A stretch of DNA of 32,066 nucleotides, taken from NCBI GenBank assembly GCA_028720205.1, contig JAQYLE010000005.1:1-32066 (forward strand), read 5' to 3'. Below are positions 503 to 32,066 of this stretch, piece after piece. Positions within the stretch are counted from its first letter, which is position 1, and each line of letters opens with the position of its first letter. Made by a program: the position numbers and the translations under genes. Source of the DNA: Clostridia bacterium (GTDB lineage: Bacteria > Bacillota > Clostridia > Christensenellales > Borkfalkiaceae). The notes under the pieces are model-generated. The model saw only the letters and a program-made list of their open reading frames with translations, was not told the DNA's origin and did no database searches.

Positions 503-1114
503 ATGAAATACGTAAATTCGAAAAGTAAAACAACGACAATGACGACAAAAGCGGAGAATCAGGAGGAAACGGGAACGGAAAAGGGAAAGGAAAAGGGAAA
601 GCGCGATTACATAAAAACGGCTTTGTACGTATATCCCGCGTTGAAAGCCGCGGCGAAAGAAGTGAGCGAACACGTGCAAAGAAAAGCCTGTTTATCGTAC
701 GGCGACAGACGTTCGTGCGAGGCGCTTGCCGAATATCTTTTGCAGCAACTGGATACGAAAGAACGGCTGGAAACGCTTTTCTACACCATCGGCAACGCTT
801 TGGACAAACTTTCCGCACGGGAAAAATTTTTGTTGCAGGTGCGCTACTTCGGCGGAAAGCATAAGGTGATTTCCGCGTATTCCGACGAGGAATTGCAGAA
901 ACTTTGCGGCAGCAGACGCAGTTATTACCGCAGACAGGAAAAATTGGTAAAGAAAATCGGCGAAAGGTTTATGGCGGGCGGTCTGAACGAGGAGAATTTT
1001 TACCGCGAGTACGGCTCGATAGAACTCATCAGGCGCGTTGACAACGCCCTCGCTTCCGGCAGGCGCGGCGCGCAGGGCGCAAGGGAAGAACAGGTGCTTG
1101 CGCGGCTTTCGTAA
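503..1114 (+). CDS. phage-type sigma region 4-like regulator (203 aa)
   Basis: The start at 503 is chosen because GAGGGAGA sits just upstream; the frame extends further 5' but has no site there. The first 33 residues are a Lys/Thr/Glu-rich disordered tail. The rest is helical. The segment LSAREKFLLQVRYF followed by EELQKLCGSRRSYYRRQEKL resembles the 'acid-rich helix, then helix-turn-helix' pattern of sigma-70 region 4 and of ArpU/RinA-like phage late regulators. It lies at the position where a small terminase or late-gene activator sits upstream of TerL in many Firmicutes phages. Seen: helical, basic, HTH-like. Inferred: transcriptional control of the head operon. A DNA-recognising packaging subunit is the main alternative. 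Family assignment is tentative. Confidence 0.45.
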   Translation: MKYVNSKSKTTTMTTKAENQEETGTEKGKEKGKRDYIKTALYVYPALKAAAKEVSEHVQRKACLSYGDRRSCEALAEYLLQQLDTKERLETLFYTIGNALDKLSAREKFLLQVRYFGGKHKVISAYSDEELQKLCGSRRSYYRRQEKLVKKIGERFMAGGLNEENFYREYGSIELIRRVDNALASGRRGAQGAREEQVLARLS

Positions 1115-1161
1115 AACGCGGCGGCGGAAATGCGGCGAGGCGGCGGAAACGAGGGAAAAGA

Positions 1162-1875
1162 CTAATTGAGAGAATCGTCGTCGGGAAAGTTTTTTTTGCG
1201 GGAAGGACGCAGAATCAGCGCTGCCAGCGTGGGGATCAACAGGCAGAGCAGGACCAGAAAGACGATCTGGGCGGGCGACATTCCCTTCGCCTCTTCTTCG
1301 GGCGCGTCGGGGGAAGGTTGCTCGGTAACGGTTTTTTCCGCATATTCGGCGTTTTTAGGAAAGGTAAAGCCCATGGGGCGTTCCACGTAGCCGAAACGGT
1401 CGCCGCGAAGTACGTAACAGTACGTTTTTCCGTTTTCCGTATAATCTCCGTAATATATACAGGTAACGGTGATGCGCGAGAGGATATCGCCCGACAGATC
1501 GGCATTGCCCGAAGCATAATAGGTGACTTCGATTTTTTTATAAAGATACGGCGTTTCGGGCGTGAACGTTACGGGGATTACAGAGGATTTTTTCACAAAT
1601 CCCGTTAACTTTTTCGCATCCCCCGCGTCTTCGAGGTAAGATACGCGATAATAGCCGTCCGTTTCGCCGAGAATACAGACGAAATAACTTTCGGGCAGGT
1701 AAAAAAGGAGCAGGCGCGCCGCCTCCTCCGAATCGGAATAAAACGCGACGTTCGCGTTCGGAATATAAGCGTAGGACGTTTCCGCTTTTACCGCTTTTAC
1801 TCCGCGCGCCGACGGAAAAAACAGCGCGCTCAGCGCAAGCGGGAAAAGAAGAAACAGTGCGAAAATTCTCTTCAT
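1162..1875 (-). CDS. secreted SH3-like protein with C-terminal membrane anchor
   Basis: About 237 residues from the ATG at 1875 (MKRIFALFLLFPLALS). It opens with a signal peptide, with likely cleavage after VKAVKA. Two related beta-rich segments follow (roughly residues 30-90 and 100-160), containing phrases such as GYYRVSYLE and GDRFGYVERP that are typical of bacterial SH3-like repeats. Then come a Pro/Glu-rich linker, one hydrophobic helix near residues 195-220 and a basic tail RPSRKK, giving a type I membrane topology facing outside. It lies in reverse between the regulator gene and TerL, so it interrupts the phage operon. A -10 box lies seven bases before the ATG and no ribosome binding site is seen. 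An in-frame ATG at 1884 is possible. No specific function is recognised; cell-wall binding is inferred from the SH3-like segments. Confidence 0.7.
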   Translation of the reverse strand: MKRIFALFLLFPLALSALFFPSARGVKAVKAETSYAYIPNANVAFYSDSEEAARLLLFYLPESYFVCILGETDGYYRVSYLEDAGDAKKLTGFVKKSSVIPVTFTPETPYLYKKIEVTYYASGNADLSGDILSRITVTCIYYGDYTENGKTYCYVLRGDRFGYVERPMGFTFPKNAEYAEKTVTEQPSPDAPEEEAKGMSPAQIVFLVLLCLLIPTLAALILRPSRKKNFPDDDSLN

Positions 1876-1882
1876 ACCCGTC

Positions 1883-1888
1883 ATTATA
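1883..1888 (-). promoter_or_regulatory. -10 box of the SH3-like gene, leaderless arrangement
   Basis: A perfect TATAAT on the minus strand is followed by seven bases and then ATG at 1875. A start of transcription at the usual distance would fall at or next to the A of the ATG. No good -35 element is visible 16-18 bases upstream. Confidence 0.5.
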
Positions 1889-1930
1889 AAGGGTGAACGC
1901 GTTGGAAATTTTGAAAAATCGCAGGGAATT

Positions 1931-3373
1931 ATGAGAGATATTGTAGAAAAGTTGAGACGGATTGAAGAGGAGCAGAAAAAACGGGCGGAACAGGATAAAC
2001 TCGCCTTATACAACACGGGGGAAAAAATACATCGGAAACAATTGGAGTTTCACCGCTGCGAAAAGCGCAACCGCTGGGTGTTCGGCGGAAACCGTTCGGG
2101 AAAAAGCGAATGCGGCGCCGTAGAATGCGTTTATTTCGCCCGCGGGATTCACCCCTACCGCAAAAACCGCGCGGATACGGCGGGGTGGGTGGTGTCGCTT
2201 TCCGCTCAGGTTCAGCGCGACGTGGCGCAGAAAAAAATTCTGGGGTATCTGCGCCGCGACTGGATTGACGATATTGTGATGCAAAGCGGAAGAAAAGACC
2301 GACCCGAATGCGGCGTGATCGATTTCATCCGAGTGAAAAACGTTTTCGGCGGGATTTCCGTTATAGGGTTTAAAAGTTGCGATCAGGGCAGAGAAAAATT
2401 TCAGGGCGCTTCGCTGGATTACGTGTGGTTTGACGAAGAACCGCCCGAAGATATTTACGACGAGTGCCGCATGCGCGTGTTCGACCGTAAAGGGGATATC
2501 TTCGGCACGATGACTCCGCTGAAAGGCATGACGTTTGTGTATGAACGCATTTATCTGAACAAGTTTCACGACCGGGAAGTCTGGTACGAATTTATGGAAT
2601 GGGCGGACAACCCGTACCTTTCGAAAAGCGAAATCGAGGCGCTTTCCGCATCGATGGACGAGACGACGGCGCAATCGAGACGGTACGGCAAATTCGCCTC
2701 GGCGGGCGTCGGGCTCGTTTACCCCGAATTCGACGAGCGCGTGCATGTGATCGAGCCGTTCGACGTGCCGAAAGACTGGCAGGATAATATTTCCATAGAT
2801 CCGGGGCTGAACAATCCGCTTTCCGCGCATTGGTACGCCGTGGACTTCGACGACAACGTGTATGTGGTTTACGAACATTTCGCCGCGGGGAAAGATATCG
2901 ATTACCACGCCGCGAAAATTAAGGAAATCTGCGACGCGCTCGGCTGGAAAAGGGATTTTAAAGGGAGAATTTGCGCCCTGATCGACAGCGCGGCGAAACA
3001 AAAAACGCTTTCCGGCGTGAAGAGCGTGTGCGAATTGTTTTACGAGCGCGGAATACTCGTGAATCCCGAAGTGAACAAGGATTTGTTTTCCGGCATAGCG
3101 TGCGTGAAAAGTTATCTGCGGCGGGACAACGCCTTGCCGAATATCTACATTTTTTCGTGCTGCGTTAATCTGATCCGCGAATTGAAAAAATACGTATGGG
3201 GCGGCGGCGACGTGCCGAAAAAAGAGGACGACCACGCTTTGGACGAAATGAGGTATTACCTGACGTCCCGCCCGAAAAAACTTGCGCCCGCACCGGAAAA
3301 ATCGGACGTGCTGAAAGAAAAAGAACGCCTATGGAGAAAGGTGGAGCGCGCAAGGCGTTTTAAAGGCGGTTAG
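1931..3373 (+). CDS. terL: phage terminase large subunit
   Basis: This is the 480-residue motor that packages DNA into the prohead and cuts it. The ATPase half has a Walker A motif GGNRSGKS at residues 52-59 and a Walker B motif YVWFDEE with Asp168 and Glu169. The nuclease half shows the expected acidic residues of the RNase H-like fold: Asp290 in SIDPG, Asp352 in ALIDSAAK and Asp438 in DDHALDEMRYYL. Full length for the family, with no frameshift. The start ATG has a weak AGGGAA upstream; the intergenic region to the divergent SH3-like gene is only 55 bases and must hold any promoter. It is followed after about 100 bases by the TerS-like gene. Catalytic residues appear intact, so the protein could be functional. 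Confidence 0.93.
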   Translation: MRDIVEKLRRIEEEQKKRAEQDKLALYNTGEKIHRKQLEFHRCEKRNRWVFGGNRSGKSECGAVECVYFARGIHPYRKNRADTAGWVVSLSAQVQRDVAQKKILGYLRRDWIDDIVMQSGRKDRPECGVIDFIRVKNVFGGISVIGFKSCDQGREKFQGASLDYVWFDEEPPEDIYDECRMRVFDRKGDIFGTMTPLKGMTFVYERIYLNKFHDREVWYEFMEWADNPYLSKSEIEALSASMDETTAQSRRYGKFASAGVGLVYPEFDERVHVIEPFDVPKDWQDNISIDPGLNNPLSAHWYAVDFDDNVYVVYEHFAAGKDIDYHAAKIKEICDALGWKRDFKGRICALIDSAAKQKTLSGVKSVCELFYERGILVNPEVNKDLFSGIACVKSYLRRDNALPNIYIFSCCVNLIRELKKYVWGGGDVPKKEDDHALDEMRYYLTSRPKKLAPAPEKSDVLKEKERLWRKVERARRFKGG

Positions 3374-3412
3374 TAATCGACGCGCGACAGGCGGAAGAAA
3401 CGAAGAAAACGA

Positions 3413-3440
3413 ACAAAGACGCCGGGACAAAGACGCCGGG
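3413..3440. repeat. perfect 14-bp tandem duplication
   Basis: ACAAAGACGCCGGG occurs twice head to tail between terL and the TerS-like gene. It lies upstream of the ribosome binding site and is non-coding. Confidence 0.9.
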
Positions 3441-3472
3441 AACGGAGAGGATAACGACGGGAGGGTGAAAAC

Positions 3473-4021
3473 GTGGACAGGAAGCAAGGCGCGGGCAGCG
3501 CGACAAGCCGCGTTATAAGCGGGTTACAAGAGGAACGGGCGACGAAAAGCGTGGGGGAAGCGTTGCTGAAGGCGGCGCTGGGGTGCAGGGTTGCCGAGGT
3601 GACGGAAGAATACGCCGAAGTGGACGGCGAGTTGAAACTGTTAAAACGGAAAAAGACGAAAAAGGATATACCGCCCGATTTAAAAGCCGTACAGTTGCTT
3701 TTGGAAACAAGAGAAGAAAAGGATATTTCCGCTCTTTCCGACGAGGAACTGGAAGAGGAAAAACAACGGCTGCTCCGTATGCTGTACGTGCGCGAAACCA
3801 AAGAAAAGGCGGGCGAGAATAAGGCGGGCGCGGAAAAGGCGGGCGAGGAAAAGACGGGCGAGGAAAAGACGGGCGAGGGGAAGTCGCCTGCGGGGAAGTC
3901 GCTTGCGGGGAAGTCGCTCGCGAGGAAGTCGCCTGCGAGGAAGTCGCCTGCGGGGAAAACGACGAAAACGCGAAGGAAAAAAGCGGCGGCGAGAGTGAAA
4001 ACGGGCGGAAAAGAAGCGTAA
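3473..4021 (+). CDS. small packaging-type (TerS-like) protein with H1-like repeat tail
   Basis: 182 residues from a GTG that follows GGGAGG with an eight-base gap. Residues 1-105 form a compact helical region. The phrases GEALLKAALG, a Lys-rich stretch and KDIPPDLKAVQLLLE resemble the core of phage small terminases, where a 'PPD..A...LL' pattern is common. Residues about 112-161 are ten consecutive pentapeptides starting with Lys. They drift from acidic (KAGEN, KTGEE) to strongly basic (KSPAG, KSLAR, KSPAR), and the last part, KTTKTRRKKAAARVK, is also basic. This tail resembles histone H1 or DNA-condensing tails. The TerS assignment is uncertain, because TerS normally precedes TerL. Other options are a head DNA-binding protein or a regulator. 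Confidence 0.55.
   Translation: MDRKQGAGSATSRVISGLQEERATKSVGEALLKAALGCRVAEVTEEYAEVDGELKLLKRKKTKKDIPPDLKAVQLLLETREEKDISALSDEELEEEKQRLLRMLYVRETKEKAGENKAGAEKAGEEKTGEEKTGEGKSPAGKSLAGKSLARKSPARKSPAGKTTKTRRKKAAARVKTGGKEA
3806..3955 (+). repeat. ten 15-bp units encoding Lys-led pentapeptides
   Basis: In-frame units of 15 bp, first AAGGCGGGCGAGAAT and last AAGTCGCCTGCGGGG. The first five encode K(A/T)G plus acidic or small residues; the last five encode KS(P/L)A(G/R). The period is exact and no unit is lost, so the repeat number can change without breaking the frame. Confidence 0.92.
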
Positions 4022-4075
4022 AAGACGTGTGAAACGACCGCGGAAGGCGCGGAAAAAAAATAAAAGGAGAGGAGT

Positions 4076-5992
4076 ATGCAGGTAAACAGCGAAACGAAAA
4101 CGATGGAGGAGCGGGAGGAGAATTTGCGGCGCGAACGGCTGGCGCGGGAGGTGACGTTTGACTTCAGGGCCAGGAGAGAGGCGCGAAGGCAGATAGAGAA
4201 CGGCTGGACGCTGAACGTTCAGTTTATGAGCGGCAATCAGTATTGCGACGTGACGAGCGAGGGCGCGGTGGAAGAAGAGGACGCGCAGTATTTCTGGCAG
4301 ACGCACCGCGTGTTTAATCACATCGCTCCCACCGTGGAATCGCGCGTTGCCAAACTGGTGAAGGCGCGCCCCGAAGTGAAGGCGATTCCTTTTTCGAACG
4401 AGGACGCGGATATGCGCGCGGCGCAACTCGCCACGGGGATATTATCTTATTCCTTCGAGCGGGCGAACGTAAAGAAAACCGTTTCGGACGGCGTTTTGTG
4501 GAGCGAAATCTGCGGAAGCGTGTTCTATAAGGTGCGCTGGGACGAGAAAGCGGGCAGAAAAGTGGGCGTGGATATGAACGGCGAGCCGATTTTCGAAGGG
4601 GAAGTGAGCGTGAGCGTGACTCCGCCGTACGAGATTTTTCCCGATCGGTGGGATTGTGATTTTTCCTCGGTGCAAAGTATTATTCACGCGCAGGCGGTGG
4701 ACGTGGAGTACGTGTTTTCCGCGTTCGGCAAGGCGGTGCCGCCCGACCCCGAAAGCGAGTTCGCCGGCGTGAATTTCGGCGCGAAAAACGCCGCGGTCTT
4801 TGAAACGCCCGCCGCGAAAACCACGCGCGTACAGGATAAAAAAGCGGGCGGAAGAGTGATTTTATTGGAACGCTATTCGTTACCCACGAAGGAGCATCCG
4901 AACGGAAAACTGGAAATCGTGGCGGGGGAAACTCTTTTGTACGAGGGAGAATTACCGTATAACAACGGCATGCGCGGCGAAAGAACGTTCCCTTTCGTTA
5001 AACAGGATTGCTTAAAACAGCCCGCGCGGTTTTTCGGCACTTCCATCGTGGACAGGCTGATTCCTGTGCAGCGCGCCTACAACGCCGTGAGAAACAGAAA
5101 ACACGAATTTTTAAGCCGACTTTCGGCGGGCGTGGTTGCCGTGGAGGACGGCTCGGTGGACGTGGACGAACTTGCCGAAGAAGGGCTCGCACCCGGTAAA
5201 ATCGTGGTGTACAGGCAGGGCAGCAAAGCCCCCGAAATGATGGATTTCGGTTCGCTCCCTTCCGATTTTAAAGAAGAGGAAGAATGGCTGGAAAAGGAAT
5301 TTTCGGTGGTGAGCGGCGTTTCCGATCTTTCGCAGAGTTCTACGCCCACGCGGGTGACGAGCGCGACGGGCTTGCAACTGCTGTTATCGCAGGACGATTC
5401 GCGTATGGCCGCGACGAAAGAGAATATGCGCGAGGCGATGACGGAGATCGCGCGGCAGACGGTGAGATTATACAAACAGTTTGCGGGCAACGCCCGACTC
5501 CTCTGCGTGGCGGGCGAAGGAGGAAAAACGCAGACCTATTATTTCAGCGCCGAAGAACTTTCCTGCGACGACGTGCTGTTTAAGGCAGAGGAAAATATGA
5601 CCGCGGAAGAGCGGAAAGAGACGATTTTAAGTCTGCTTTCTTCCGGTATTTTAGCAGGCGACGACGGAAAGATTTCGCAGACGAACAAAAACCGCATTTT
5701 AGACGCCTTCGGGCTGGGCAGTTACGAAAACTGCCGCGATATCTCCGCGCTGCACGAGGAACGCGCCAGAGAGGAAAACCTGACGATCCGCGAAGGCGGA
5801 AAGGCTACGCGGGACGAACTGGACGACGACGAGGCGCATATCGCCGAGCATACCCGCTATTATTTTTCGCAGGAAGGGCGCGCGCTGGGCGAAAAAGAAA
5901 AAAAAGCGCTGCTTGAACATATTCTGCGCCACAAGCAGGCGGCGCGCGCGGCGATAAGCGCGGAAACGGACGAGAAAAAAACGGCGCTATAA
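4076..5992 (+). CDS. phage portal protein (P22-like)
   Basis: 638 residues, close to the size of P22-type portals. It forms the dodecameric ring at the capsid vertex through which TerL pumps DNA. Recognisable portal features include the N-terminal helix with NVQFMSGNQY, then HRVFNHIAPTVESRVAKLVKARPEV, the wing segment VTPPYEIFPDRWD, and the stem/clip part with QRAYNAVRNRKHEFLSRL followed by the VVSGVSDLSQSS..TSATGLQLL pattern typical of P22/P22-like portals. The C-terminal 100 residues are charged and helical, like a short barrel. A strong GGAGAGGAG site precedes the ATG. It sits between the TerS-like gene and the scaffold, as expected. No internal stop or frameshift. Confidence 0.88.
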   Translation: MQVNSETKTMEEREENLRRERLAREVTFDFRARREARRQIENGWTLNVQFMSGNQYCDVTSEGAVEEEDAQYFWQTHRVFNHIAPTVESRVAKLVKARPEVKAIPFSNEDADMRAAQLATGILSYSFERANVKKTVSDGVLWSEICGSVFYKVRWDEKAGRKVGVDMNGEPIFEGEVSVSVTPPYEIFPDRWDCDFSSVQSIIHAQAVDVEYVFSAFGKAVPPDPESEFAGVNFGAKNAAVFETPAAKTTRVQDKKAGGRVILLERYSLPTKEHPNGKLEIVAGETLLYEGELPYNNGMRGERTFPFVKQDCLKQPARFFGTSIVDRLIPVQRAYNAVRNRKHEFLSRLSAGVVAVEDGSVDVDELAEEGLAPGKIVVYRQGSKAPEMMDFGSLPSDFKEEEEWLEKEFSVVSGVSDLSQSSTPTRVTSATGLQLLLSQDDSRMAATKENMREAMTEIARQTVRLYKQFAGNARLLCVAGEGGKTQTYYFSAEELSCDDVLFKAEENMTAEERKETILSLLSSGILAGDDGKISQTNKNRILDAFGLGSYENCRDISALHEERAREENLTIREGGKATRDELDDDEAHIAEHTRYYFSQEGRALGEKEKKALLEHILRHKQAARAAISAETDEKKTAL

Positions 5993-6033
5993 GCGGTAAA
6001 AAAATCTGAACAGAGATAAACAGGAGGATTGAA

Positions 6034-6681
6034 ATGGAAGGATTTGAAAACAAAGAAGAGGAGAACGTGCGCGCGATAAACGGGAACGAGGCGGACGGCA
6101 AAGACGCGAAAGCCGCATCGGCGGCTTCGGATCTGCCCGAAAAGTTTAAAAGCGTGCATGCCCTTGCAGAAGCGTACAACGCTCTTCAGGCGGAATTTAC
6201 CCGTCGCTGTCAGCGCCTGAGAGAGTTGGAGGCGCGTGCGGACAATCTTTCGCGCGGCGATAACGAGCATGGAAAGGACGGTTCTTCGGAAATAAAAGAA
6301 GGCGGTAAAGCCGACGCGCAAGCCGAAGAAAAAACCGGAATTTCCGCTTCGATCAACGACGCGCAAAGCCCCGCGCCCGCCTTGGAAAACGCAACGTCGG
6401 AAAGCGAAAGAAGGGAAGAAACGCGTGCGGAAGTTGCGAAAGCAGACGAAAACGCAGGCGCGGACGAAAAGGCGCTTTTCTGCGCCGAATCGGAGAGTAA
6501 GGAACAAGACGGCGTAAGCGAACAGACCAGGCTGAAAATTATTGCCGATTATCTTGCCTCGCTGAAAAAAAACGCCGCTCCGCTGATTCGCGGCGGCGCG
6601 GGAACGCTTTCGACTCCGCCGGCAAAACCCGCCTCGATAGAAGAAGCGGGGAGAATGGCTTTACGTTACTTCCGCGCGTAA
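6034..6681 (+). CDS. capsid scaffolding protein
   Basis: 215 residues, highly charged and poor in aromatic residues. The segment LPEKFKSVHALAEAYNALQAEF (about residues 30-51) is the recurring 'SVEELAKAYNALEAEFTKK' motif of phage scaffold proteins, followed by a coiled coil RCQRLRELEARAD. A disordered Glu/Ala/Lys-rich middle leads to a C-terminal helix rich in basic and hydrophobic residues (IEEAGRMALRYFRA), the expected coat-binding end. It lies immediately before the coat gene, which is the conserved place. An AGGAGG site lies ten bases upstream of the ATG. It acts inside the prohead and leaves during maturation. The identification rests on motif, composition and context. Confidence 0.8.
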   Translation: MEGFENKEEENVRAINGNEADGKDAKAASAASDLPEKFKSVHALAEAYNALQAEFTRRCQRLRELEARADNLSRGDNEHGKDGSSEIKEGGKADAQAEEKTGISASINDAQSPAPALENATSESERREETRAEVAKADENAGADEKALFCAESESKEQDGVSEQTRLKIIADYLASLKKNAAPLIRGGAGTLSTPPAKPASIEEAGRMALRYFRA

Positions 6682-6773
6682 AAAAAACGTATGCGGATTC
6701 GGTTCCGCGGCAACACGGCGTACTCAGTGCGCGAATTTTAGTAATTTAAATTGAAATTAAGGAGAATTTTATT

Positions 6774-7958
6774 ATGGTAACCGTTACTTCTGCCAACGAG
6801 GCTTTGAAAAATTATTATCTCGACGCCGTGAGCGAGGCGCTTAACAAAAAAGTGAATCCTCTGCTTGCGAAAATAAAAAAGACCACCGCCGACGTGTGGG
6901 GCAAAGACGTGAGAAAACTTGTGCGTTACGGCATGTCCGGCGGCGTGAGCGCCGGAGACGAAACGGGCAATCTGCCCGTCTCCGGCGGGAACAACTGCGT
7001 GCAATTCGTTTCGACTTTGAAAAATCTGTACGGCACGCTGGAAATTTCGGATAAGGCGATCCGCGCTTCCGCAGGCAACGAGGGCGCGTTCGTCAATCTT
7101 CTCAACGACGAAATGCAGGCCCTGATTAAAAGTTCGGAATTCAACTTCGGGCGCATGCTGTACGGCGACGGCAGCGGCAAACTCGCGGGCGCTTCCGTTT
7201 CTTCGACAGACGAAACGGCGGGCGTGGTGAGTCTGGACGACGTAAGCAATATTTACGAGGGTATGATTATCGATTTCTGCACTTCCTCGGGCGTGCGCAT
7301 CGGCGGGTGTACGAGCAAGGAAATTCTTAAAGTAGATCGCGCGAATAAGAAAATTACCATTTCCGGCTCGCCGTTCGATTCCGATACGCTTCCTGCCGGC
7401 GCTTACGTAGCCTTACAGGGATCGAGCGTGAAAGAACTCACCGGGCTGGGCGCGTTATTCTCTTCGTCCGATACGTTATACGGCGTAACCAGAGCCGATC
7501 ATACCTGGATGACTCCGTATTCCCTCGCTTCGACGGGCGCTTTCGATATTTCGAAATTCCAGAAAGCCGTGGATACCATCGAACAGCAATCGGGCGGCAG
7601 AATAAACTTCGCCGTGTGCTCGTTCGGCGTTAAGCGCGCCGTATACAACTATCTCGTTTCCTCAGGCGTTACGCCCGAAGTTAAAGAGATTGAAAACGGT
7701 TTTAAAGCCATTATGCTGGACGGCATTCCCGTGGTCGCCGACCGATTCTGCCCCGCAAGCACGATGTATTTGCTGAATACCGATGATTTCTGCCTGCACC
7801 AACTCTGCGACTGGCAGTGGCTGGAAAACGAAAACGGCAGCATTTTAAAACAGATCGCCGGCAAACCCGCTTATTCCGCTACTTTGGTGAAATACGCCGA
7901 ATTGCTCTGCGTTCGCCCGAACGGGCAGGGCGTGCTGCGCGGCGTGACGGAGGCGTAA
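6774..7958 (+). CDS. major capsid (coat) protein, HK97 fold type
   Basis: 394 residues. The N-terminal helix is followed by a hydrophilic loop region (GMSGGVSAGDETGNLPVSGGNN) that fits the E-loop. Next comes a long segment with helix-rich 'spine' phrases such as NEGAFVNLLNDEMQALIKSSEFNFGRMLYGDGSG. A beta-rich insertion runs roughly from residue 150 to 220. The C-terminal domain contains DISKFQKAVDTIEQQSGG and a terminal strand motif DGIPVVADRFCPASTMYLLNTDDF, which is common to HK97-fold coats. AAGGAG precedes the ATG by about ten bases. Position between scaffold and adaptor supports the call. The exact coat family could not be fixed from sequence alone. Confidence 0.85.
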   Translation: MVTVTSANEALKNYYLDAVSEALNKKVNPLLAKIKKTTADVWGKDVRKLVRYGMSGGVSAGDETGNLPVSGGNNCVQFVSTLKNLYGTLEISDKAIRASAGNEGAFVNLLNDEMQALIKSSEFNFGRMLYGDGSGKLAGASVSSTDETAGVVSLDDVSNIYEGMIIDFCTSSGVRIGGCTSKEILKVDRANKKITISGSPFDSDTLPAGAYVALQGSSVKELTGLGALFSSSDTLYGVTRADHTWMTPYSLASTGAFDISKFQKAVDTIEQQSGGRINFAVCSFGVKRAVYNYLVSSGVTPEVKEIENGFKAIMLDGIPVVADRFCPASTMYLLNTDDFCLHQLCDWQWLENENGSILKQIAGKPAYSATLVKYAELLCVRPNGQGVLRGVTEA

Positions 7959-7992
7959 CGGCCGCTTCGGCGATGAACGCGTAACGTACGAC

Positions 7993-8010
7993 AGGCGCCG
8001 TACGGCGCCT
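7993..8010. other. perfect 18-bp palindrome after the coat gene
   Basis: AGGCGCCGTACGGCGCCT is its own reverse complement. It lies 35 bases after the coat stop. It could form a hairpin that trims or attenuates the head mRNA, but it has no U-run behind it, so a standard terminator is not supported. Confidence 0.6.
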
Positions 8011-8090
8011 TAGGAAAAGCGCAAAAGGCGACGGGCGGGGAGATTCCGGCTTTTTCCGACCGTCGCTTGCGCTCTTTTCGGAACAGGACT

Positions 8091-8130
8091 CACGATAGGT
8101 TCGGGCGCGCCGCGATGGGTTCGGGCGCGC
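8091..8130. repeat. 20-bp imperfect tandem duplication
   Basis: CACGATAGGTTCGGGCGCGC is followed directly by a copy with two differences. It lies in the 208-base gap between coat and adaptor genes, upstream of the AAGGAG site at 8155-8160. Confidence 0.85.
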
Positions 8131-8166
8131 GGAACGATACGCGTAACGATAAACAAGGAGAATGGA

Positions 8167-8739
8167 ATGATGAAAGTGAAAGATATCGTGCGAGAAGCGG
8201 CGTCGGCGCTGGGACTGACGGACGCCGTGGATTACTGCGACGGAAAAAACGCCGCGAGCGGGGATACCCCCGCGGCGGGCGAGGAGGACGCGAAAGAGTT
8301 GTTGAAGTTCTTTCATCGGGTGGAAACCGATACGGCGGTGAATTACGTGCCGCTGATTTTTGAGGAGGCCGTAGAGAGCCGAAACGGAAAAATCGATACT
8401 TCCGCCCTTTCGAAAAAGTTTTTGCGCGCAACGTATCTGCGCGATAAAAACGGCTTGCGCGCGCAGTACAAAACGTACCCCGGGTACCTTTTGACCGCCG
8501 AAAAAAGCGGCGTGCTGGGGTATGCGTATTATCCCGCGGAAAAAACCCTTTCGGACGACGCCGATTTTTCCGCGGACGAGTTGGAAAAGGCGTTTGTGGC
8601 GGGAATCGCCGCAGAATATTATTTAAAAAAACAACTTTTCGAAGAAGCCGACGTATACGCGCGGGAATATAAAGCCGCTTTATCGCTGGCGCGACGGACG
8701 CAAAGCGGAAAAAATTTTAAAGCGCGGAGGTGGAGATGA
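8167..8739 (+). CDS. head-tail adaptor (connector) protein
   Basis: 190 residues. It is the ring expected to bind below the portal (the role of P22 gp4 or HK97 gp6). The N-terminus VKDIVREAASALGL and the C-terminal helix FVAGIAAEYYLKKQLFEEADVYAREYKAAL fit the helical adaptor pattern, where the 'AAEYxLxxGxxEEAxxxxxxY' signature recurs. The middle is variable. ATG follows AAGGAG with a six-base gap; a second ATG is directly adjacent at 8170. Its stop TGA overlaps the start of the next gene (ATGA at 8736-8739), so the two are translationally coupled. The call is from pattern and position between coat and head-closure genes. Confidence 0.65.
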   Translation: MMKVKDIVREAASALGLTDAVDYCDGKNAASGDTPAAGEEDAKELLKFFHRVETDTAVNYVPLIFEEAVESRNGKIDTSALSKKFLRATYLRDKNGLRAQYKTYPGYLLTAEKSGVLGYAYYPAEKTLSDDADFSADELEKAFVAGIAAEYYLKKQLFEEADVYAREYKAALSLARRTQSGKNFKARRWR

Positions 8740-10115
8740 TGGCGGACGGGTATCCGGCGTTGTTTTCAGGCGGCGCTAAACAACGTAAGTTGTACAAACT
8801 TTCGTTCGACGGCTTTTCGAGAGACAACCAATCGGGAAAGTTGCGCGTAAAATGCGACAACTGCGAAATTCACGACGGGAACGTTTACTCCGCGTTCGCG
8901 CTGAAAAAAGCGACTCTGGCGGGGCAGGGCGCCTTTCCTTCGAAATCGGGCGCTACCTTTCTGCGCGTGGCGACTCCCGCGGAAACGGTGGACGGCGTTA
9001 AATACGAGGACGCGATTGCAGTAAACGCGGACAACTCCGTTTACCGCTATAATCCGAATACGCTGTCGTACGAACAATTAACCGATATCGCCCTGACCTG
9101 CACGCCTCAGATCACGGCTTATTTTTCCGCGGAAAAAGAGGAATACGCTCTGCTTTTCGGAGGGCAGGCGGCAAGCGTGAGGGCGGGAGGTTTGGTAAAA
9201 GTGATTGCCGAAAAGTGTTATAAAAACTTTGGCTGCGCGGCCTTCGAACGCGTGTTTTTCGCCGCCGACGACAAGAGCGTAAAATATTCGGGCGTGCTTG
9301 CGATGGAAGATTTTACGGAAAGCGCCGACGAGGGAGGCTGCATTTCCTTTCCCGTCGCTTCGGGAATACGCGGTATCTGCGCGTTTGAAAAATACGTATA
9401 CGTGTTTTTCGCGCGGGAAATTTACAGAATTTCGGCGCGGGGCGCGGCAAGGGAGTTCACCGCGGAAAAGGTGCCGTACGCCGGCGGGGAAATCGCCGAA
9501 GGCTCGCCGGTGAATTGCGGAAACGCGATTTGCTTTCTGACGGACGAGGGCGTTTACGCGTTTGACGGCTCGAAGGCGAAAAACGTTACGCGCGACCGCG
9601 GAGAACTGGTTTTTTCGAATCTTGCCGTGTGGTATTGCGCCGGCGCGGCGGGCAGGTACGTCTGCGAGTTCGGCTCTTCCGCCGCTTCCACGCAGAAAAT
9701 TCTGTATAACGCGCAAAACGGCGCGGTGACTCAGATAGACGTTCCGTTAAAAACCGCCTGCGCTTACGGCAACGAACTCTACGTCTATTCGGGAGGAGAA
9801 AAAATTTTCGCCTTCGACAGGAGCGTGGAAGTCGGCAGATCGTACGGCGTTTACAGACTGAACGAGCCTTTTTTACACGGGGGATTGAAAACGCTGCGGC
9901 GCGTGAAAATTTACGGTAAGGGTTCGGTTCGGTTCGTTTTTTCCGCCTACGGCTCCGTTACGTCGACGACGTATTCGCTGACGCTGGCGGAAAACGGTAC
10001 GGAAATTGCCCTTAACGTTACGGCGAAAGCCTTTTCGTTCAGTCTGTTTTTGGGAAACAAAGCGTTCGTTTCGGGCGTGGACGCGGAGTATTCCGCGTTT
10101 GACAGGGGCAGGTAG
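8736..10115 (+). CDS. head-closure (stopper) protein, P22 gp10-like, presumed beta-propeller
   Basis: About 459 residues, near the size of P22 gp10, which closes the head below the gp4 ring. It is almost all beta, with repeated 40-60-residue blocks that carry GVYAFDGS, KYVYVFFAREIYRIS, ELYVYSGGEKIFAFD and VYRYNPNTLSYEQL. This is the pattern of a propeller with 'value-display' blades. The start is taken at ATG 8736, inside the upstream stop codon; ATG 8739 has a better gap to GGAGG, and a GTG at 8730 is less likely. No enzymatic motif is seen. Order (adaptor, then this) matches P22. It could also be a tail hub protein of another short-tailed phage, or a cell-surface propeller that has been captured. 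Confidence 0.6.
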   Translation: MMADGYPALFSGGAKQRKLYKLSFDGFSRDNQSGKLRVKCDNCEIHDGNVYSAFALKKATLAGQGAFPSKSGATFLRVATPAETVDGVKYEDAIAVNADNSVYRYNPNTLSYEQLTDIALTCTPQITAYFSAEKEEYALLFGGQAASVRAGGLVKVIAEKCYKNFGCAAFERVFFAADDKSVKYSGVLAMEDFTESADEGGCISFPVASGIRGICAFEKYVYVFFAREIYRISARGAAREFTAEKVPYAGGEIAEGSPVNCGNAICFLTDEGVYAFDGSKAKNVTRDRGELVFSNLAVWYCAGAAGRYVCEFGSSAASTQKILYNAQNGAVTQIDVPLKTACAYGNELYVYSGGEKIFAFDRSVEVGRSYGVYRLNEPFLHGGLKTLRRVKIYGKGSVRFVFSAYGSVTSTTYSLTLAENGTEIALNVTAKAFSFSLFLGNKAFVSGVDAEYSAFDRGR

Positions 10116-10126
10116 GAGGTGATGGT

Positions 10127-10606
10127 ATGAATATCGACGTCATTACGCTGACGGACGCGCAGTTCGCTTTACTGAGCGAGGATCAGATAGACAAGGTGCG
10201 TGCCGCGCAGATTAAAAAACGGGCGTTGGAGGAAAAACTCGCCGAGGAAAAGAAAAAGCGGAAATACGCTCTGGCGCGCGCGGGAATCTTCCGCTCGTGC
10301 GTATATGAAAAAATTTGCGAAGAACTGACGGAGGCTTACGATAAAAAAGTGACGGCGCTTCGCGAGGGATTGCTCTTCTATCTGCAATTCTGCGCAAAAC
10401 CCGAAAGCGCCGGGGGAACGAGCGAACCTTATGCGGATTACTCGCTGTCTTTACAGGAACGCGTGCAGGTTGTGAAAAATTATTACGAAAACAAGTATTC
10501 CTCCGCTTCCGAACGCTTTACGGCGTTTAAAGCCGATAAGACGGCGCCTTCGTATCTGGGAGAATATTATTCCGACGTATACGACTATTTTTCGCAAGGT
10601 TTGTAA
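10127..10606 (+). CDS. small helical phage protein in the tail-needle position
   Basis: 159 residues, unrecognised. AGGAGGTGATG precedes the ATG. An N-terminal coiled coil (about residues 18-45, KIRAAQIKKRALEEKL-type heptads with many Lys and Glu) is followed by two amphipathic helices and a C-terminal segment rich in Tyr and Ser (SYLGEYYSDVYDYF). It is the last phage-like gene, in the place of P22 gene 26, the trimeric needle. It has no glycine-rich or phenylalanine-rich needle features, so a needle is only a positional guess. An assembly chaperone or virion-attached protein is as likely. Confidence 0.5.
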   Translation: MNIDVITLTDAQFALLSEDQIDKVRAAQIKKRALEEKLAEEKKKRKYALARAGIFRSCVYEKICEELTEAYDKKVTALREGLLFYLQFCAKPESAGGTSEPYADYSLSLQERVQVVKNYYENKYSSASERFTAFKADKTAPSYLGEYYSDVYDYFSQGL

Positions 10607-10717: not shown

Positions 10718-10746
10718 TTTACACGCGCCGCTTTTTGTAGTATAAT
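10718..10746 (+). promoter_or_regulatory. sigma-A promoter for the membrane protein pair
   Basis: TTTACA at 10718-10723, a 17-base spacer and TATAAT at 10741-10746. Transcription would start near 10753, ahead of AGGAAG and the ATG at 10766. It separates the phage module from the host genes. Confidence 0.85.
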
Positions 10747-29830: not shown

Positions 29831-30436
29831 ATGGAACTAACCAAGTTGGCGGATATAATCCAAGGGAACATACCTACGAGAATTGAAGTTCCTTCCGGGC
29901 AATCGATTGAAACGATTACGATGCAGGAACTCAATTATATTGCTAATGTATCCGACGATTTACCTATCGAAAAATATCTTACCGTGCAAAGCGATAAAAT
30001 TGCGATTTACTCTTTGACGAAGGAATATGACGTTGTTGTCGGTCTGAGTTCAGGCAAAGCTATTGTAATTGAGCAGAGTCGAGCAAGGAAATTGATCTTA
30101 TCGAATTTAGCAATTATTCGTATTAAAGATATAAATATTCTTGATCCATATTATCTTTGCTGGTATATCAATAATAATAAAGCGGCACTCAAAGAACTGA
30201 ATAAATTAAAACAAGCTACTGCGGCTGTTTCCGTCATCCCTTTGAGTATGCTGAAAGGTTTTGATATAGTTCTCTTACCCATTGAGAAACAACGCATAAT
30301 CGGCAAAATAAACGAGTTAAAACGAAAACGTGATCGGCTGACACGCATTATTGAAACAAAAAAATCGGATATTTTAACACAGCAACTTATAAAAACTTTT
30401 GAAAAGGAGTCGAAAAATGGCAATAAGCGAGTATGA
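29831..30436 (+). CDS. hsdS: half-size HsdS specificity subunit (type I restriction)
   Basis: 201 residues, about half of a normal HsdS. It has one target recognition domain (residues 1-145, with YLTVQSDKIAIYSLTKEYDVVVG and NLAIIRIKDINILDPYYLCWYIN) and then one coiled spacer helix (PIEKQRIIGKINELKRKRDRL …). A full HsdS has two of each. Single-domain forms are known to work as dimers and then recognise symmetric split sites. AT-rich, with different codons from the genes to its left. It overlaps HsdR by 20 bases. It could also be a remnant of a longer gene, but the start and promoter look intact. Confidence 0.8.
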   Translation: MELTKLADIIQGNIPTRIEVPSGQSIETITMQELNYIANVSDDLPIEKYLTVQSDKIAIYSLTKEYDVVVGLSSGKAIVIEQSRARKLILSNLAIIRIKDINILDPYYLCWYINNNKAALKELNKLKQATAAVSVIPLSMLKGFDIVLLPIEKQRIIGKINELKRKRDRLTRIIETKKSDILTQQLIKTFEKESKNGNKRV

Positions 30437-32066
30437 AGTAGAAAATCTTTTTATAGAAAGATTAGGGACTATCGGTTACAAATATATCGAATTAAAAAAT
30501 TATACCGAAGTAATGTTGAATTTTAAGGCTCAACTTGAAGTATTCAATAAAGAGGAAATCATGAAAGCCAAAGGTGTTGCAGAGCTATCTACTGCCGAAT
30601 TTGACAGACTTCGTACACAAATTGAAAACAAGACTGTTTATGAGTCTGCAAAGATTCTACGTGATAAACAGGTCTTGGAGTTGGATAACGGCAAGCGTAT
30701 CTATATTGAATTCCTGTCAAAAGACATAGACCGCAATATTTATCAGGTTACGCATCAAGTAACGATGGATAAAGACCATATGAATGAAGTCGTTTATAAG
30801 AATCGTTACGATGTTACAGTTCTCATTAATGGTTTACCACTTGTTCAGATTGAATTGAAACGACCCGGCGTTGAAATAAACGAAGCAATCAATCAGATAA
30901 ATCGTTATCGCAGAGATTCGTTCAGGGGACTTTTTCACTTCATTCAATGTTTTGTTGTGTCAAACTCGATTCAGACAAAATATTTTGCAAACGAGAACGA
31001 AACGAACGCCGATGGGACATATAAAGCAATATTAAAGAGTTTAGCATTCTTTTGGACGGATGCGAACAATGAGCGTATCAATCAACTCAATGAGTTTACC
31101 GAAGACTTCTTCACTAAGTTCAATATTACCGCTCTACTGACAGACTATACTGTATTGCAAGATACCTTAAAGAATATTATCGTAATGCGTCCGTATCAGA
31201 TTTATGCGACGAAAGCAGTTTTGCGCCGTGTTTTGGAAGAAAACCGAAACGGCTACGTTTGGCATACGACCGGTTCAGGAAAAACGCTCACATCTTTCAA
31301 GTGCGCTTCGCTTCTCCGGGACAATGGCAGAATCGATAAAGTATTCTTCCTGGTTGACCGTAAAGATTTAGACGATCAGACCGTTGATGAATACAATTCA
31401 TTTGAAGAAAATTGCGTAGACAGCACGGATTCCACTTCTGAACTCATTAAACGTTTGAAAAACAGCGGTGAAAAAATGCTTGTTACCACAATTCAAAAAC
31501 TCGCTTGCGCGCTCCGCAACGAAAAATATAAACCGATTATGGAGGCGTACAAAACGAAGAAGTGTGTATTCGTAATTGACGAATGTCATAGAAGTCAGTT
31601 CGGCAAAATGCACGGCGATATCCGCAGGAGCTTCCAGAACGCCAATTTTATAGGCTTTACCGGAACCCCTATTTTTGAAGAAAACAAAGGGGCGTCCGGT
31701 CAGACGACGGCAGACATTTTCAATGCCGGAAATATGGATGCTTGTCTTCATAAGTATCTTATCAAAGAATCCATTGCAGACGGTAACGTTTTGAAATTCT
31801 CTGTGGAATATCAAAACACTTTCAATGTTGTAACAACCAATGCTGCTGATATGACGGTAAGACGTATCGTTCACGAGCAGAGCAACAATCCGAATTTTAA
31901 TCTGGAAGAATACTGTAAACGCAATAACATTGATATTTCAAACATTTATAGCGATCAGCAACGTATCGAACTCGTTACCAACAACATTTTGGAACATTAC
32001 GAAAAACACACGAAAATCGGTACGGACTCTTACACCTCTCTTTTCGCCATTCAGTCTGTTCCGCTT
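30417..32066 (+). CDS. hsdR: HsdR type I restriction endonuclease subunit, 3' end outside
   Basis: The first 550 residues are in the window; the frame is open to the right edge. N-terminal nuclease: Asp in NRYDVTVLINGLPLV and Glu-x-Lys in QIELKRPG (PD-(D/E)xK), then the QxxxY helix EAINQINRYRRDSF. Translocase motor: Walker A TTGSGKTLTSF, motif II VFVIDECHRSQ, motif III GFTGTPIF. HsdR cuts unmethylated DNA after ATP-driven translocation, in a complex with HsdM and HsdS. ATG after AAAGGAG, inside the hsdS end. No hsdM is seen between or before; it must be downstream of the window or elsewhere. Confidence 0.95.
   Translation, partial: MAISEYEVENLFIERLGTIGYKYIELKNYTEVMLNFKAQLEVFNKEEIMKAKGVAELSTAEFDRLRTQIENKTVYESAKILRDKQVLELDNGKRIYIEFLSKDIDRNIYQVTHQVTMDKDHMNEVVYKNRYDVTVLINGLPLVQIELKRPGVEINEAINQINRYRRDSFRGLFHFIQCFVVSNSIQTKYFANENETNADGTYKAILKSLAFFWTDANNERINQLNEFTEDFFTKFNITALLTDYTVLQDTLKNIIVMRPYQIYATKAVLRRVLEENRNGYVWHTTGSGKTLTSFKCASLLRDNGRIDKVFFLVDRKDLDDQTVDEYNSFEENCVDSTDSTSELIKRLKNSGEKMLVTTIQKLACALRNEKYKPIMEAYKTKKCVFVIDECHRSQFGKMHGDIRRSFQNANFIGFTGTPIFEENKGASGQTTADIFNAGNMDACLHKYLIKESIADGNVLKFSVEYQNTFNVVTTNAADMTVRRIVHEQSNNPNFNLEEYCKRNNIDISNIYSDQQRIELVTNNILEHYEKHTKIGTDSYTSLFAIQSVPL

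Follow-up and report, generated by a model that had tools for sequence, protein, structure and literature searches.

A podovirus-type head and packaging module in a Clostridia bacterium, probably domesticated as a gene transfer agent-like system

The window analyzed here is the entire contig JAQYLE010000005.1 (G000:C5; 32,066 bases) of a Clostridia bacterium whose genome comprises 1.94 Mb in 82 contigs. At positions 503-10606, it carries a module of ten genes: a regulator, a minus-strand membrane protein, the large terminase TerL, a small-terminase-like protein, the portal, scaffold, coat, adaptor, and hub proteins, and a small helical protein. This module is probably a domesticated head and packaging system of podovirus type, similar to a gene transfer agent (GTA). 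Its fixation in the chromosome would predate the divergence of the host family's genera and probably also that of several families of the order. We infer particle assembly, cargo, release, and delivery from the genes of the module. A preliminary description of the same DNA had offered a remnant, a satellite, or a domesticated GTA-like unit as options; the evidence favors the third and speaks against the other two. Prophage, remnant, and satellite are set aside because of the prevalence of the module, its agreement with the DnaG tree, and the ratios of nonsynonymous to synonymous substitution rates (dN/dS) described below.

In the genus that was examined first, all 37 genomes have the coat gene, and 8 of 24 other genomes of the order have it as well. 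In the host family, it is present in 236 of 251 sampled genomes, in 145 of the 152 good-quality ones, and in 18 of 18 genera. It occurs almost always as one copy per genome, and no coat among the matches listed for the family contains a stop. A coat match is absent from 15 family genomes, the gene is reduced to a fragment in at least two (G061 and G206), and three give two matches each (G918, G933, and G939). An apparent pair of copies in G015 was rejected as a single stretch assembled twice (99.995% over 19,884 bases). Across the order sample, 237 of 396 genomes contain the coat, including 32 of the 34 genomes listed for family f1; in the class sample, 26 of 391 genomes match, 12 of these outside the order. 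The best 80 of at least 575 GTDB coat matches include Candidatus Borkfalkia species, Candidatus Scatosoma pullicola, and Christensenella sp. UBA7597. NCBI taxonomy places Borkfalkia in the Christensenellaceae, Christensenellales, and Scatosoma in Clostridia incertae sedis; the order of the carriers appears to be the Christensenellales.

The module is vertically inherited and under purifying selection. The head-gene tree, built from TerL, portal, and coat, has 22 of 26 splits in common with a DnaG tree in which some deep branches are long and weakly placed (29 of 30 genomes; G045 was left out for want of a DnaG match). Within the genus, 11 of 15 splits are common to the head-gene and DnaG trees, compared with at most 3 in 2000 label shuffles, and the distances of both correlate at 0.84, compared with at most 0.65 in the shuffles. 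The median dN/dS is lowest for TerL (0.11), coat (0.12), and portal (0.13), followed by the helical gene (0.17), the small terminase and the minus-strand protein (0.23 each), the adaptor and the regulator (0.26 each), the scaffold (0.34), and the hub as the fastest gene (0.40). Of 207 pairs, the 60 closest entered these medians; for some genes the number of pairs is smaller, and certain pairs repeat the same genomes under two locus ids. The comparison of conservation and dN/dS among relatives, which the preliminary description had proposed as a check, thus gives widespread presence together with medians of 0.11-0.40.

An ordinary or decaying prophage is very improbable in light of these data. 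The genes are of phage descent, and rare coat relatives outside the order (L283 and L285) are prophage-like by eye. Against this stand the presence in nearly all family genomes, the agreement with DnaG, dN/dS values far below 1, and the module itself, in which no integrase or replication gene was recognized. The pattern tied to a prophage beforehand, namely integration and lysis genes together with patchy presence among relatives, is replaced here by a mostly single-copy module whose descent follows the host. Decay is contradicted by the dN/dS values, which lie well below 1, and by the ATPase and nuclease motifs of TerL, which are retained in 119-126 of 127 sequences as counted with motif patterns. 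Close phage relatives of the module were looked for and rejected: a coat search of phage records gave 15 matches of 23-28% identity, and a TerL search gave 650 matches, every one below 60% identity.

The arrangement of the module is also conserved. Of the 37 genus loci, which come from 36 genomes because the assembly duplicate of G015 counts twice, 30 keep the order and orientation of all ten genes, and contig ends interrupt the remaining seven. The ten-gene order recurs in many of 80 named loci, and its core recurs in the loci of other families. The genes m1 and m2 adjoin the module in the window, in four genus loci, and in many relatives, and they lie downstream of it in loci of families f1, f19, and f28; these neighbors in common favor an old shared site. 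In other families, a scan of ten neighbors identified them as housekeeping genes, for example those for topoisomerase subunit A, Mur ligase, DNA polymerase I, and RNase J. In the window, the composition of the module is that of its surroundings, as had been noted before: the GC content is 0.50-0.56 in windows and similar in the flank, and the GC content at third codon positions is 0.644 in nine module genes versus 0.643 in the 14 host genes to the right, with a correlation of relative synonymous codon usage (RSCU) of 0.96. The minus-strand gene shows a poorer codon fit to the host (RSCU correlation 0.68). The module directly borders host genes, its last gene ending at 10606 and the next host gene starting at 10745.

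Hence, the locus contains virus-derived structural and packaging genes in a chromosome, descending vertically under purifying selection, as is characteristic of GTAs. No replication or integration gene was recognized in a search confined to the locus. More specifically, no integrase, primase, or repressor was recognized in the module or its neighbors, where the ten window proteins and the ten neighbors were scanned and the rest was judged by eye. In the window, no needle, ejection, or tailspike gene, integrase, or att site was recognized, needle and ejection genes being judged by position and family scans.

Lysis genes distinguish the window's genus from several other families. In L064, a DUF7934 protein (PF25588, 1.7e-121) comes after the hub, and next to it stand a BhlA holin (2.3e-10) and a Phage_holin_1 protein (1.9e-4, barely above the cut-off). 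Among 31 loci, some of them from outside the order and some without these clusters, the DUF7934 cluster is present in 16, the BhlA cluster in 7, and the Phage_holin_1 cluster in 8. Among 71 relatives, BhlA was found in five, at the module locus in G038, G043, G045, and G053 and on a contig with a partial TerL in G059, and Phage_holin_1 in three; neither holin turned up in a relative that lacks the module, except for the one genome whose holin contig also bears a TerL remnant. The absence of lysis genes described previously therefore holds for this genus as far as the two holin families are concerned, but not for several other families, where two holins come after the same genes. Since those families have the two holins and the window's genus does not, the lysis gap looks like a later loss or relocation. 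The same data bear on a satellite that would use the tail and lysis functions of a helper phage. The module of the genus, consisting of head genes with no adjacent lysis genes, is what such an element might look like. Its descent follows the host, several other families have their own holins beside the same genes, and no satellite-type integrase, primase, or repressor was recognized in the locus; a satellite is thus highly improbable.

Several observations weigh against a GTA-like system that was fixed early in the order. The coat is not matched in 159 of the 396 order genomes, and G064, which is 100% complete, has neither coat nor TerL. In a later sample, the coat is absent from two genomes of the genus, G808 and G950 (81% and 76% complete). 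Among the order matches listed, the coat of G176 contains a stop, and TerL was not found in the 20 kb around the otherwise conserved module of G146 (L269, family f28). The right flank varies between m1/m2, dUTPase and others in most genus loci, and ispG/polC in 8 of 80 named loci; therefore, a single fixed site is not established. Holin_BhlA and Phage_holin_1 were each found in 0 of 43 genus genomes, these being the only two lysis families searched, and within that search limited to two holin families, the genus yielded neither lysis nor receptor-binding genes.

Some of the coat gaps in the family are explained by an element end inside TerL. In four family genomes without a full coat (G218, G420, G061, and G206), TerL is present up to residue 277 or 278, after which the DNA runs into a common element end. 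A 31-base pattern of this end has five carriers among the 251 family genomes, each with a single copy, and its place within TerL is the same in all of them; the carrier outside the group of four, G907, possesses a complete coat gene elsewhere. By exact pattern, the end is found nowhere else in the five genomes. It lies after TerL codon 276-278, contains several copies of an inverted repeat of about 20 bases, and is transposon-like and, by eye, Tn7-like (L330:5557-13790; L331 after 8636; L332 before 54; L333 before 57; and L339 before 253). No transposase was seen in the part of the element examined. In G061, cytosine methyltransferase and TIR-like genes, named by eye, lie between the TerL break and the last approximately 50 codons of the coat.

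Family scans of the ten window proteins with Pfam and PHROG profiles directly support TerL, portal, coat, hub, and regulator as named here, and the small terminase is supported via its homologues. They bear out the intact head and packaging module proposed earlier, all frames of which are intact. The preliminary description had overlooked three genes, namely the regulator, the minus-strand membrane protein, and the small-terminase-like gene. The first gene (503-1114, plus strand) encodes a putative ArpU/RinA-like late-gene regulator; it matches phrog_36, transcriptional regulator, at 1.4e-5, and among 15 homologues, 6 match phrog_36 and 4 match phrog_248, transcriptional activator. It is followed by a minus-strand gene (1162-1887) for a putative membrane-anchored secreted protein, SH3-like by eye, that is conserved between regulator and TerL; the family scans gave no Pfam match and no convincing PHROG match for it. 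TerL (1931-3373, plus strand, as are all genes that follow) matches Terminase_6N at 1.8e-9 and phrog_2, terminase large subunit, at 1.1e-31.

The next gene (3473-4021) encodes a small-terminase-like protein in which the family's N-terminal part is missing. No profile matches the window protein at E 0.01, the nearest being phrog_23444 at 0.011, and 21 of 26 homologues match phrog_309, terminase small subunit. Six members align solely to positions 190-284 of the 319-position family profile. The DNA-binding domain of small terminases is usually located in the N-terminal part. Its truncation here lends indirect support to particles that would carry host DNA in preference to the module's own genes. 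The portal (4076-5992) matches P22_portal at 3.6e-18 and phrog_156 at 6e-40. The putative scaffold (6034-6681) is named by its position, and so is the putative gp4-like head-tail adaptor (8167-8739). Both labels, which go back to the preliminary description, find no supporting family match and are based on position and conservation. The major coat protein (6774-7958) matches phrog_14242, major head protein, at 4.3e-49, and reaches 19.9 bits with Pfam SU10_MCP, which is under the cut-off of 24.1. The hub or head-closure protein (8730-10115) matches phrog_3287, virion structural protein, at 3.7e-6, as well as phrog_511; its 46 homologues match phrog_3287 in 36 cases, phrog_511 in 20, phrog_5107 (amidase) in 7, and head closure Hc3 in 3. 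The small helical gene (10127-10606) is homologous to, but shorter than, the DUF7934 protein (PF25588) of other families, according to hhalign (probability 97.2, E 4.4e-11).

From these parts, the following course can be proposed. The ArpU-like regulator would switch the operon on in part of the population, and a procapsid would be formed by scaffold, coat, and portal. TerL and the small terminase, which is devoid of its N-terminal part, would load chromosomal DNA with no sequence preference. The head would then be closed and equipped with a very short tail by adaptor, hub, and the DUF7934-type protein. Lysis would then release the particles; in several other families, the two holins next to the module would bring it about, and in this genus, other genes would.

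A domesticated capsid with a role other than gene transfer, such as a PBSX-like killing particle or one for DNA disposal, export, or signaling, would be compatible with the same conservation data, and we regard it as a rather unlikely but serious alternative. The hub evolves fastest, as a protein in contact with a target might, and the report on the GTAs of Faecalibacterium, as far as considered here, leaves the same question open for that system (PMC12946183). Retention of the TerL ATPase and nuclease motifs, the portal, the adaptor, and the hub fits DNA packing and closure instead. No long-tail gene was recognized here; the tail of PBSX is long.

Two kinds of putative membrane-anchored proteins may belong to the GTA-like system. 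In an alignment of 31 homologues, the minus-strand protein encoded at 1162-1887 shows a hydrophobic N terminus and a C-terminal transmembrane stretch. Of 66 loci with enough sequence to the left of the regulator, 62 have a minus-strand reading frame there that reaches at least 300 residues and in most cases about 800, and 53 of 60 complete frames combine a signal-like N terminus with a C-terminal transmembrane stretch, as counted by a simple hydropathy rule with no control set. In at least four of these loci (L049, L054, L055, and L136; 353-488 residues), the frame is a different gene, and in the window, this region is cut off by the contig end. Common descent of the large secreted proteins was considered and dropped, as profile comparison of f1 with f19 gave a probability of 66 over 47 columns and f28 scored lower; so nothing beyond a shared architecture is claimed.

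A more far-reaching reading, advanced tentatively and with slightly more doubt than confidence, is that the module is an ancient gene-exchange organ of the Christensenellales as a whole. In this view, the GTA, of podovirus type, would date back at least to the separation of several families and be kept with nearly the fidelity of a core gene in one of them; it would have its own regulator and would use the minus-strand protein and the propeller-like left-side surface proteins of about 800 residues for release or recipient recognition. It would also be the source of the GTA-like packaging seen in Christensenellaceae from human stool.

At the left contig end, upstream of the regulator, a tandem repeat with a 36-base unit and 10.3 copies (1-370) may have caused the assembly break. 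Genes that by eye resemble the specificity and restriction genes of type I systems lie at the right end (29831-32066); their GC content is about 0.36-0.39 and their codon usage is unlike the host (RSCU correlation 0.06), and they are probably a recent arrival. Elsewhere, family f28 includes a tandem pair of full-length coat genes (G128:C2:8035-9204 and 9219-10370). Outside the order, L280 (G764:C1:520000-539999) holds a lone pair of scaffold-like and coat genes amid genes that look like central metabolism by eye; TerL and portal were not seen within the 20 kb examined.

To our knowledge, few GTAs are known outside the Alphaproteobacteria. If the proposed reading is true, the module adds a further podovirus-type GTA, retained throughout one family of gut bacteria and in much of its order. 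It also provides a candidate operon for the GTA-like packaging of Christensenellaceae and makes capsid-borne exchange of chromosomal genes testable. Caution is advised with virus catalogues, which fragments of such a locus can enter. Among 53 IMG/VR contigs with a coat relative, at least six also hold a bacterial gene that flanks the module (five SSB-like and one m2); some of the contigs are distant and may be true phages. No report of this module was found in the literature searched.

Compared with phage P22, the module shares the order of TerL, portal, scaffold, coat, adaptor, and hub, as had been pointed out before, and the P22_portal match. It deviates from this order by the small-terminase-like gene, which is placed after TerL, and differs further in its coat of the phrog_14242/SU10 type and in that no needle, ejection, or tailspike gene was recognized. 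With RcGTA, as described in PMC12946183, it has in common the vertical descent, the purifying selection, and a small terminase without a DNA-binding domain, whereas RcGTA is a long-tail cluster of different gene families in one lineage of Alphaproteobacteria. PBSX of Bacillus subtilis is, by the description given there, likewise a domesticated phage-like element of a Gram-positive host that packs host DNA, but it is a tailocin and does not inject (PMC12946183).

By description, the nearest published case is the FpGTA of Faecalibacterium (PMC12946183, Nat Commun 2026), which its authors presented in January 2026 as the first GTA of the human gut. For FpGTA I and II, particles and DNA of about 9 kb have been demonstrated. 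The same study assigned 3 of 25 GTA-like packaging events in human stool to the Christensenellaceae genera HGM11616 and QANA01; its operon search named metagenome-assembled genomes of Onthomonas, Gemmiger, and Faecalibacterium, and the sections of the article considered here contain no Christensenellaceae operon. A Faecalibacterium 16S probe matched 0 of 391 genomes of our class sample. In FpGTA, the small terminase lies upstream of TerL, whereas it lies downstream here, and a second operon encodes a tail fiber, a receptor-binding protein, a holin, and an endolysin, of which none was found in the window's genus with the two holin families searched (PMC12946183). Both systems are, as far as that report describes FpGTA, compact podovirus-type clusters of approximately ten genes in a Gram-positive gut host, with small and large terminase, portal, scaffold, and coat, and with a small terminase that has no obvious DNA-binding domain. 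They also share near-ubiquity among their hosts, FpGTA being present in 12 of 12 genomes of its genus (PMC12946183).

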